The notes under the pieces are model-generated. The model was not told the origin of the DNA. It saw nothing but the letters and a program-made list of their open reading frames with translations, and did not search any database. From positions 747,890 through 811,889 of the forward strand of contig CALSPF010000002.1 of NCBI GenBank assembly GCA_943788165.1: a stretch of 64,000 bases of DNA, written 5' to 3'. Positions 2,898 to 56,915 of the stretch are shown in pieces. The DNA comes from an uncultured Flavobacteriaceae bacterium (GTDB lineage Bacteria > Bacteroidota > Bacteroidia > Flavobacteriales > Flavobacteriaceae). The number at the start of each line of letters is the position of its first letter. The stretch's first letter is position 1. The position numbers were made by a program, and so were the translations under genes.

Positions 2898-2966
2898 ATG
2901 AACAACACGTTTTTATATCGCAACACTTTTTTTTACTTCTTTAACGAGGCAGAAAGGACTTTGTAA
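2898..2966 (+). CDS. Phe/Tyr-rich leader peptide of a transcription attenuator: MNNTFLYRNTFFYFFNEAERTL
   Basis: 22-codon ORF with 5 Phe and 2 Tyr (TTT TTT TAC TTC TTT cluster at 2928-2942) directly before the attenuator and pheA. Confidence 0.85.
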   Translation: MNNTFLYRNTFFYFFNEAERTL

Positions 2967-2985
2967 TATATCAACGCAACGATAG

Positions 2986-3020
2986 AAAAAGTCCTGACAT
3001 TTGTTCGGGACTTTTTTTTT
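2986..3020 (+). terminator. Attenuator terminator upstream of pheA
   Basis: AAAAAGTCCTGA-CATTTGT-TCGGGACTTTTT stem followed by a T-run, 10 nt before the pheA ATG. Confidence 0.85.
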
Positions 3021-3030
3021 GGGGTATACT

Positions 3031-3855
3031 ATGGAAACAAAAACAGCAATACAAGGAATTAAAGGGTCATTTCACCATGCCGTGGCGATGAATTATTTTC
3101 ATCAAGGGGTTAAATTGGAGGAATGCCTAAGTTTCGACACCCTAGTTGCTGCTGTCTTAGATGCTAAGGTGCAGCATGCTGTTATGGCCTTGGAAAATTC
3201 AATCGCTGGATCTATAATACCCAATTATGCTTTAATCGATCGGAATGATTTATCAATTATCGGAGAATATAACCTAACCATTCATCATAATTTGATGGCT
3301 TTGGAAGGCCAGTCTATAGCCGATTTAACCGAAGTGCATTCCCATCCGATGGCCCTCTTGCAATGCAAGGCTTTTTTTCAAGCATATCCGCATATTCGTT
3401 TGATTGAAGCGGCCGATACAGCCGATGTTGCACGATCTATTTCTGCCGAAAATCGCAAGGGAATTGGAGCGATTGCACCAAAGCAAGCGGCCGAAATCTA
3501 CGAATTAAACATATTCGCACATTCCATACAAACCATTCAAGATAATGTTACCCGTTTTGTCATCATTCAGAAAAAAAGTGATGTAATTGAGAATAAGCAA
3601 GTCAATAAAGCTTCTTTAAAATTTATTTTAGATCATCAACGGGGAAGTTTGGCAGCTGTACTCAATGTAATGAGTGATTGTCTATTGAACCTAACAAAAA
3701 TACAGTCTCTTCCCGTAATTGAAACACCAGGGAAATATGCCTTTTTTGTTGATGTTACTTTTGATCATTTACATCAGTATGAAAAAGCGCGCAAGATTTT
3801 AGTAATCATGGCATTAGAATTTAAAATCCTTGGAGAATATAACACCGCCAAATGA
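3031..3855 (+). CDS. pheA: Prephenate dehydratase
   Basis: PDT-like sequence (IQGIKGSFHHAVA, NSIAGSI, DNVTRFVII) plus ACT-like C-terminus; ORF track starts at a non-ATG at 3001, ATG at 3031 preferred. Confidence 0.88.
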   Translation: METKTAIQGIKGSFHHAVAMNYFHQGVKLEECLSFDTLVAAVLDAKVQHAVMALENSIAGSIIPNYALIDRNDLSIIGEYNLTIHHNLMALEGQSIADLTEVHSHPMALLQCKAFFQAYPHIRLIEAADTADVARSISAENRKGIGAIAPKQAAEIYELNIFAHSIQTIQDNVTRFVIIQKKSDVIENKQVNKASLKFILDHQRGSLAAVLNVMSDCLLNLTKIQSLPVIETPGKYAFFVDVTFDHLHQYEKARKILVIMALEFKILGEYNTAK

Positions 3856-55380: not shown

Positions 55381-56783
55381 TTATACTTCTTCAGCTAGGG
55401 TTAAGGCTTTGTCCAAGGCCCCTAGTTTATTATAGACTTCTTGCAATTCACTTTCCGGAACAGAATCGGCAACAATGCCTGCCCCTGCTTGATAATGCAA
55501 TTGATGGTTTTTACTTAAAAAAGATCGGATGATGATGGCATGATTGAAAGTTGCCATGAAAATCCATGTAGCCAATGGCGCCGCCATAGACGTTTCTTTT
55601 TGTGGTTTCGTAGCGATCGATGAGTTGAAGGGCATTGTGTTTGGGTGCCCCACTGAGGGTTCCTGCGGGGAAAGTATCGGCCACCACACGGAAGGTTTTA
55701 GCAGCTTCTTTCATGCGACAAGTCACCTTGGAGACCAAGTGAATTACATGGGAGTAAAATTGAATCTCCCGGTTTTTTTCGACCACCACTTCAGATCCGT
55801 TTCGACTTAAATCGTTCCGAGCTAAATCGACCAACATTACATGTTCGCTGTTTTCTTTAGGGTCTTTAGCGAGTTCTTTTGCTGCAATAGCATCTTGTTC
55901 GTCATTCCCTGTTCGTCGAAAGGTTCCTGCGATGGGATGAATCTCTGCTTTTCCTTTTTCTACAATCAATTGGGCTTCAGGGGAACTGCCAAAAATCTTG
56001 AAATCACCATAGTCAAAGAAGAACAAATAAGGCGATGGATTGATGGAACGTAAGGTGCGGTAGACATTGAATTCATCTCCTTTAAATCCTTGCGAGAAAC
56101 GACGGGAAAGAACCAATTGAAAGACGTCACCACGAAAGCAGTGCTGTTTTCCTTTTTTGACAAAATCGATGAATTGATCATCGGTTAAATTCGAGGCTTT
56201 TTCCCCTACTTTTTCAAAGGTAAATTTACTGCTGTTTTTTGCATTTAATAGGCGTTCAATTTCTGGGAGATTGTGTTCTCCGTCATAGACATGTGAAAAT
56301 AAATGCGCCTCATGATTGAACAAGACTAATGGCAATGATGTTTTGATAGACGGCGTAGTAGATGTCGGGTATGTCATGCCCTGGTTTGGCTTTATTGAGT
56401 TGGATGTTCTCAAACTGATCAACTGCATCATGAGCAACATAGCCAAAAATCCCATTACTAATGAATTTAAAAGGAAACGCTTCATTGTCGAATTGCTGTG
56501 AAAATTGATGGATCTTTTCGGGTATATCCACTGTTTCATCTACAATGTCTTCTGTTCTGCTTCCGTCTGGATAAGCGGTTGTTAATTGTCCATTCTTTAG
56601 TTCAATGGAGGCAATTGGTTTGCAACAGATGTAGGAGAAATCATTATTGTTGGCATGATAGTCACTACTTTCCAATAAGAGGGAATGTGGGAAAACATCT
56701 CTTAACTTGAGATACGCACTAACGGGCGTAAGCGTATCGGCTAAGATTTTTTTATGTTCGGTTTGCAGTGCAAATTTTTCCAT
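55381..56783 (-). pseudogene. trpE: Anthranilate synthase component I, disrupted by two +1 frameshifts (or sequence errors)
   Basis: Three overlapping frames (56310-56783, 55511-56539, 55381-55689) together give a full TrpE (DVFQLVLSRRFSQGF, PIAGTFRRTG, LARNDLSRNG, FPAGTLSGAPK, GAIGYMDFHGNF). Confidence 0.85.
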
Positions 56784-56794
56784 CGGCTAAAATT

Positions 56795-56827
56795 AAAAAA
56801 GGCTTGTCGTGATGACAAGCCTTTTTT
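56795..56827 (-). terminator. trp operon attenuator terminator
   Basis: AAAAAAGGCTTGTC-5-nt loop-GACAAGCCTTTTTT perfect stem, just upstream of the trpE ATG. Confidence 0.88.
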
Positions 56828-56848
56828 ATATTGATACAGCGTGTTTCA

Positions 56849-56867
56849 CGAATAGATGTTCTATTCG
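56849..56867 (-). promoter_or_regulatory. trp leader hairpin (regions 1:2)
   Basis: CGAATAGA-ACA-TCTATTCG 8-bp stem overlapping the leader stop codon. Confidence 0.75.
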
Positions 56868-56902
56868 TTCCACCAGTTTGTATTGTTGTTTCTAATTTTC
56901 AT
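56861..56902 (-). CDS. trp leader peptide MKIRNNNTNWWNE (tandem Trp codons)
   Basis: 13-codon ORF with TGG TGG immediately before the leader hairpins and the trp operon; absent from the ORF track. Confidence 0.85.
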   Translation of the reverse strand: MKIRNNNTNWWNE

Positions 56903-56907
56903 TGAGT

Positions 56908-56915
56908 CAAATATA
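56908..56915 (-). promoter_or_regulatory. -7 box of the trp promoter (TATATTTG)
   Basis: TAnnTTTG match 5 nt upstream of the leader ATG; -33 element weak. Confidence 0.5.

Follow-up and report, generated by a model that had tools for sequence, protein, structure and literature searches.

The window, meaning the whole stretch of 64,000 nucleotides of DNA analysed here, carries on its minus strand a trp operon in the order trpE, trpG, trpD, trpC, trpF, trpB and trpA; trpE, trpG and trpD were identified by Pfam and the names of the rest follow from their translations. The same strand carries, upstream of the operon, MarR and YceI genes together with a short CDGSH-like frame recognized by eye. 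The element before trpE, at positions 56795-56915, is proposed to be a short RNA switch in which the reading of two Trp codons would decide whether transcription continues or stops. The box, leader, TGG TGG, hairpin, TCGTGA, TCACGA and terminator that the original prediction had placed here are correctly positioned base for base. The features of the region, all on the minus strand, are the following:

56915-56908, minus strand: sigma-A-type -7 box TATATTTG (TAnnTTTG), 5 nt upstream of the leader ATG
56902-56861, minus strand: leader peptide ORF of 13 codons, MKIRNNNTNWWNE and stop, from ATG to TAG (ATG AAA ATT AGA AAC AAC AAT ACA AAC TGG TGG AAC GAA TAG)
56883-56879, minus strand: outer protector helix, 5' side ATACA (MFE fold), corresponding to a helix of Bacteroid-trp
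56875-56870, minus strand: tandem Trp codons TGG TGG, the proposed sensing site; WW/WWW is conserved upstream of trpE
56867-56849, minus strand: protector hairpin (arm 1:arm 2) CGAATAGAACATCTATTCG; at 56868-56848 it reads ACGAATAGA-ACA-TCTATTCGT, with 9 bp including the flanking pairs
56851-56846, minus strand: putative antiterminator arm 2, TCGTGA, beginning 18 nt past the last Trp codon
56838-56834, minus strand: outer protector helix, 3' side TGTAT (MFE fold), corresponding to a helix of Bacteroid-trp
56827-56795, minus strand: intrinsic terminator AAAAAAGGCTTGTC-ATCAC-GACAAGCCTTTTTT (whole: AAAAAAGGCTTGTCATCACGACAAGCCTTTTTT)
56812-56807, minus strand: putative antiterminator arm 3, TCACGA, formed by the terminator loop and the start of its 3' arm
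55381-56783, minus strand: trpE, the controlled gene, first in trpE-G-D-C-F-B-A, with its frame broken near 56325 and 55550

The hairpin expected right after the Trp codons is present and was recovered in the predicted fold, where it covers the leader stop codon and conceals part of TCGTGA. In the MFE fold the Trp codons are in turn surrounded by the outer helix ATACA/TGTAT, which was absent from the original prediction. The stretch TGAAACACGCTGTATCAATAT separates the protector hairpin from the terminator on the minus strand. The terminator ahead of trpE, also anticipated, is a strong intrinsic one and ends 11 nt before the trpE ATG (56783). The predicted fold of the 113-nt RNA has an energy of -34.5 kcal/mol, against -12.9 +/- 3.1 for dinucleotide shuffles (z = -7.1), and the full-length predicted fold leaves the terminator intact.

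Comparison of trpE upstream regions

The window TrpE, used as a query, found a match in 106 of 150 relatives, and judging by the named ones it belongs with uncultured marine Flavobacteriaceae, close to MS024-2A and Candidatus Arcticimaribacter. The sample for comparison comprised 134 distinct regions preceding trpE in Flavobacteriales. Of these, 123 contain a leader with WW or WWW, in ORFs of 6-34 codons, compared with 0.5% of mononucleotide-shuffled regions, and a T-tailed terminator hairpin follows in 122 of those 123, so that a lack of conservation of the WW codons or hairpins, which would have spoken against the original prediction, was not seen. Such a comparative check had been proposed along with it; it found WW/WWW, the terminator and the complementarity of arm 2 to the loop kept in Flavobacteriaceae and beyond, with compensatory changes.

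The leader peptides themselves diverge widely (for instance MKTRNNSTNWWNE, MNRTIIFLNGWWYALQQ and MNTILNNTWWWCFRN). In one relative, L127, the TrpE N-terminus is 96% identical to that of the window, yet the leader, MNQTTIFNNWWHTNNLQNS, and the spacer are quite different; the Trp codons, TCGTGA and the terminator are kept despite this, which points to an attenuator region that turns over quickly or is exchanged.

Complementarity between arm 2 and the terminator loop

A strong complement to the terminator loop was found in the spacer between the Trp codons and the terminator in 104 of 122 leaders, the commonest pairing being TCGTGA with TCACGA. The arm 2:loop pairing score is 15.9, against 8.0 +/- 0.45 for shuffled spacers. 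Variant loops are matched by variants of arm 2 (TCGCAAT/ATTGCGA, TCGCGA/TCGCGA, GAGAAGC/GCTTCTC and TGTGGG/CCCACA), and further arm 2/loop variants are GGATTCAG/CTGAATCC, TTTGTCGCAAT/ATTGCGACAAG, TGCGATGAT/GTCATCGCG and GTGAACAGC/GCTGTTCAC. When the canonical CACGA loops were removed, the 23 distinct loops that were left scored 14.8 with their own spacers and a mean of 11.4 with swapped ones, and none of 20,000 permutations of swapped spacers reached 14.8. Moreover, TCGTGA occurs in frames 0, 1 and 2 relative to the leader in 48, 19 and 15 cases, respectively, and lies before the stop codon, on it (TCG TGA) or after it; therefore, it is not kept as peptide code. Within the WWNE subgroup, to which the window belongs, arm 2 and the loop hardly vary, so that covariation is uninformative there and the evidence comes from the wider set. 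The TCGTGA:TCACGA antiterminator had been put forward as short and tentative, and covariation across the relatives now supports it well. No earlier description of this antiterminator in Bacteroidota was found in the literature, although the part covered (the main text of mostly open papers) makes this weak evidence.

A strong match between arm 2 and the loop was not detected in 18 of the 122 leaders, including most of the order-level family f7; another pairing is possible in these. Five f7 leaders (L115, L117, L119, L120 and L121) have a conserved peptide end in common (NSSSGLKVLSCC-like), and in most of them the match is missing; the attenuators of this family may rely on another pairing.

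Distance from the Trp codons and predicted folds

In 83 of the 104 leaders the start of arm 2 lies 17-20 nt past the last Trp codon, a constant distance despite variation in the length of the leader and in the position of its stop. When the last Trp codon occupies its A site, a ribosome covers about 10-11 nt downstream of that codon, and therefore arm 2 is expected just outside a stalled ribosome. With the 18 nt found in the window, a ribosome stalled there would mask arm 1 and free arm 2, as in an attenuator.

In predicted folds of the nascent RNA from the edge of a stalled ribosome to the end of arm 3, the antiterminator forms in 99 of the 104 leaders, but in only 35 when the upstream part is present; arm 2 is occupied by upstream pairing above the level of shuffles in 95. 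Thus, according to sequence and predicted folds, the protector, the antiterminator and the intrinsic terminator are mutually exclusive. In stepwise folding of the window RNA with a stalled ribosome, TCGTGA catches the loop once TCAC emerges, and no fold is more stable than the antiterminator up to about 4 nt past arm 3; then the full terminator would win, given time. As soon as 7-8 pairs of the terminator are available, the model favours it over the 6-bp antiterminator also when the ribosome is stalled, and antitermination would therefore have to be kinetic, a race.

The release of the ribosome also seems to matter. In the window model, a ribosome on TAG leaves 5 of the 6 arm 2 bases free, and therefore termination in the WWNE subgroup would need prompt release of the ribosome and re-forming of the protector. 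The stop codon of the WWNE subgroup lies 15 nt earlier than in 33 relatives in which it is the TGA of TCGTGA, so that in the latter a ribosome at the stop would itself cover arm 2.

Discussion

The element before trpE is, in our judgement, very probably a ribosome-mediated transcription attenuator of the trp operon and a divergent member of the Bacteroid-trp leader family. A tandem-Trp leader-peptide attenuator had been predicted for this operon, and the comparison of relatives bears it out through the WW/WWW codons, the terminator and the covariation of arm 2 with the loop. The original prediction had also described its geometry as that of the classic trp attenuator. In E. coli trpL, tandem Trp codons are combined with a protector, an antiterminator and a terminator as alternative structures, and the antiterminator takes up the 5' arm of the terminator. 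The window element shares the tandem Trp codons and the alternative structures but not the textbook 2:3 pairing, since arm 2 pairs with the loop and the 3' arm of the terminator. It differs from trpL also in having no Shine-Dalgarno sequence and a predicted transcription start 0-1 nt from the leader ATG.

The distribution of the bases of arm 3 argues for this difference. Averaged over the 104 leaders, 4.4 of the about 7 nt of arm 3 fall in the loop, while the 3' arm accounts for 2.0 and the 5' arm for 0.5. Of the core pairings, 93 draw on stem bases of the 3' arm, and 83 use no base of the 5' arm. A classical geometry, in which arm 2 would act mainly via the 5' arm of the terminator and the loop pairing would be the end of that helix, seems unlikely. 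It does find some support in the window, where the fold with a stalled ribosome extends the 6-bp core by ACA:TGT and GCT:GGC; however, as a general feature such an extension into the 5' arm is no better than in shuffled sequences (mean rank 0.41, 104 leaders), and the 5' arm is touched by only 21 of the 104 core pairings. With the core mostly in the loop and the 3' arm and the 5' extension at the level of chance, the antiterminator seems to cap the loop and to block the top of the stem, a target that would be unusual compared with the textbook form. On balance, we lean towards the view that flavobacterial trp attenuators have an arm of 6-8 bp, at a set distance from the Trp codons, which catches the terminator loop on its exit from RNA polymerase and keeps the stem from closing while sparing its 5' arm, and that in the genus of the window this would be combined with a leaderless leader peptide, the ribosome loading on the first nucleotides.

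Two frame shifts, near 56325 and 55550, interrupt the trpE frame in the window; they were absent from the original prediction. In the closest relative, with 94.6% DNA identity to the window, the frame is intact at 466 aa. From this it could be argued that trpE is a pseudogene here and that the leader is a relic of an attenuator that no longer serves Trp synthesis. We regard this as improbable: trpG, trpD, trpC, trpF, trpB and trpA are long unbroken frames, identity to the intact relative remains high around both breaks, every leader element is intact, and an assembly error is at least as likely as a real lesion.

The complementarity of TCGTGA to the loop might alternatively serve, instead of antitermination, to stabilize the terminator through a loop pseudoknot, as the share of arm 3 lying in the loop and the intact terminator of the full-length fold would allow. 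Nevertheless, most loops are just 4-6 nt long and hard to bridge, the 93 pairings that also take stem bases of the 3' arm would force the stem open, and arm 2 is hidden in the ribosome-free state, when termination should peak; we therefore give a pseudoknot very little credence and retain the antiterminator.

Promoter box and transcription start

Of 33 leaders in the genus of the window, 32 have the TAnnTTTG box 5 nt before their ATG and one has it 4 nt before, and over the wider set it is found within 60 nt of the leader in 107 of 123, against 6.9% per shuffle. It is hardly credible that the hairpin merely terminates the MarR-YceI-CDGSH genes, which do sit upstream on the same strand, and that the small WW ORF is incidental, since the WW leader, box and hairpin are kept before trpE elsewhere in the order, in other genera as well as other families, the chance of a WW leader is 0.5% per region, and the spacing of the box in the congeners is as given above.

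In F. psychrophilum the box spans -12 to -5, according to the transcript studies (PMC9723704, PMC6414381), and the start here is therefore predicted about one base before the leader ATG. From the spacing of the box, the leader mRNA of the window is thus predicted to be leaderless. Leaderless mRNAs amount to only 5.5% in F. psychrophilum (PMC9723704, PMC6414381). The transcript of the Sinorhizobium meliloti trpL / rnTrpL starts at the ATG of the leader ORF, and trans functions of both its RNA and its peptide are known (PMC7298713). It resembles the window element as a Trp leader that is leaderless (known in S. meliloti, predicted in the window) and differs in that sequence and phylum are unrelated.

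Bacteroid-trp has been recorded upstream of the trp operon of F. psychrophilum (PMC6414381), and leader-peptide attenuation was proposed for the amino-acid operons of this species from transcript maps (PMC9723704). These structured 5' elements have in common with the window element the family and the proposed attenuation by leader peptides; they differ in that an antiterminator pairing is given here, while the accessible parts of both papers (PMC9723704, PMC6414381) give none.

Relationship to Bacteroid-trp

A search of the window at Rfam gathering thresholds returned no family. In an E-value search, RF01692 (Bacteroid-trp) was the top-scoring family in the region, with 39.1 bits and E = 0.005, and the alignment covers the element at full length (model positions 1-131); since the gathering score is 49 bits, by the Rfam rule the element is filed as a divergent relative and not as a member. 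It lies upstream of trp biosynthesis genes in a Bacteroidota genome (Flavobacteriaceae), with tandem Trp codons in a short leader ORF inside a long hairpin. A scan of 60 related genomes gave 12 above threshold, with a maximum of 64.5 bits in other genera of the family, and the congeners mostly score 33-47 bits; therefore, the window element is a divergent member left out by the threshold, and the window, its congeners and genera scoring 50-64 bits form an unbroken series in which the element always occupies the same site before trpE. Thr_leader, BTnc231, FopS and other weak Rfam matches, mostly to a terminator hairpin and far under their gathering scores, were rejected as chance.

The element is accordingly not new as a kind, being already catalogued as Bacteroid-trp, a motif published from comparative genomics (Weinberg et al. 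2010, PMC2864571). The site before trp genes, the Trp leader, the long hairpin over the Trp codons and the start of the terminator are common to both; the window element is shorter, has WW instead of WWW and scores below threshold. The RF01692 consensus stops at the 5' arm of the terminator (GGCUUGUC), which is marked unpaired, and therefore the model has neither the terminator hairpin nor the antiterminator.

Proposed mechanism

The anatomy, its conservation, the covariation of arm 2 with the loop and the constant distance are read directly from the sequences; from them we infer stalling, termination, readthrough, the kinetic race and the transcription start, in the following way. Transcription would start almost at the leader ATG, so that a ribosome could begin the leader peptide at once. 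With ample charged tRNA-Trp, it would clear both Trp codons and exit at TAG, after which the protector hairpin and the outer helix would re-form and hide TCGTGA; the terminator would then fold and transcription halt before trpE. With charged tRNA-Trp scarce, the ribosome would stall on TGG TGG and cover arm 1, leaving TCGTGA free outside it. As the terminator loop leaves RNA polymerase, TCGTGA would pair with TCACGA, that is, with the loop and the first bases of the 3' arm, and prevent the stem from closing at the decisive moment, such that RNA polymerase would continue into trpE-G-D-C-F-B-A.

Bacteroid-trp has so far been an in silico motif whose Rfam model ends before the switching part. The comparison adds this missing part in the form of an antiterminator whose arm 2 covaries with the loop and keeps a fixed distance from the Trp codons. 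It also points to leaderless leader peptides as a possible basis of attenuation in a phylum that has no Shine-Dalgarno sites, and antiterminators may act by capping a terminator loop.

Some related leaders are worth recording. A second leader in the window, at 2898-3018 on the plus strand, encodes MNNTFLYRNTFFYFFNEAERTL and is followed by a terminator and by a gene resembling prephenate dehydratase (about 3031-3855). Near its end this Phe leader has GGACTTT, which perfectly complements AAAGTCC in the 5' arm of the terminator, and therefore, unlike the trp leader, it seems to have the classical geometry. Two of the regions compared, L105 and L106, carry two WWW leaders in tandem before one trpE (e.g., MQKINTIWWWQSKL and MLNNKINNWWWPVLTQYAGQSCYNII), an arrangement that resembles a double attenuator. 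In four small 600-kb genomes (L098, L103, L124 and L125) there is no WW leader before trpE, and a T-tailed hairpin of similar sequence is kept there, perhaps as a remnant.
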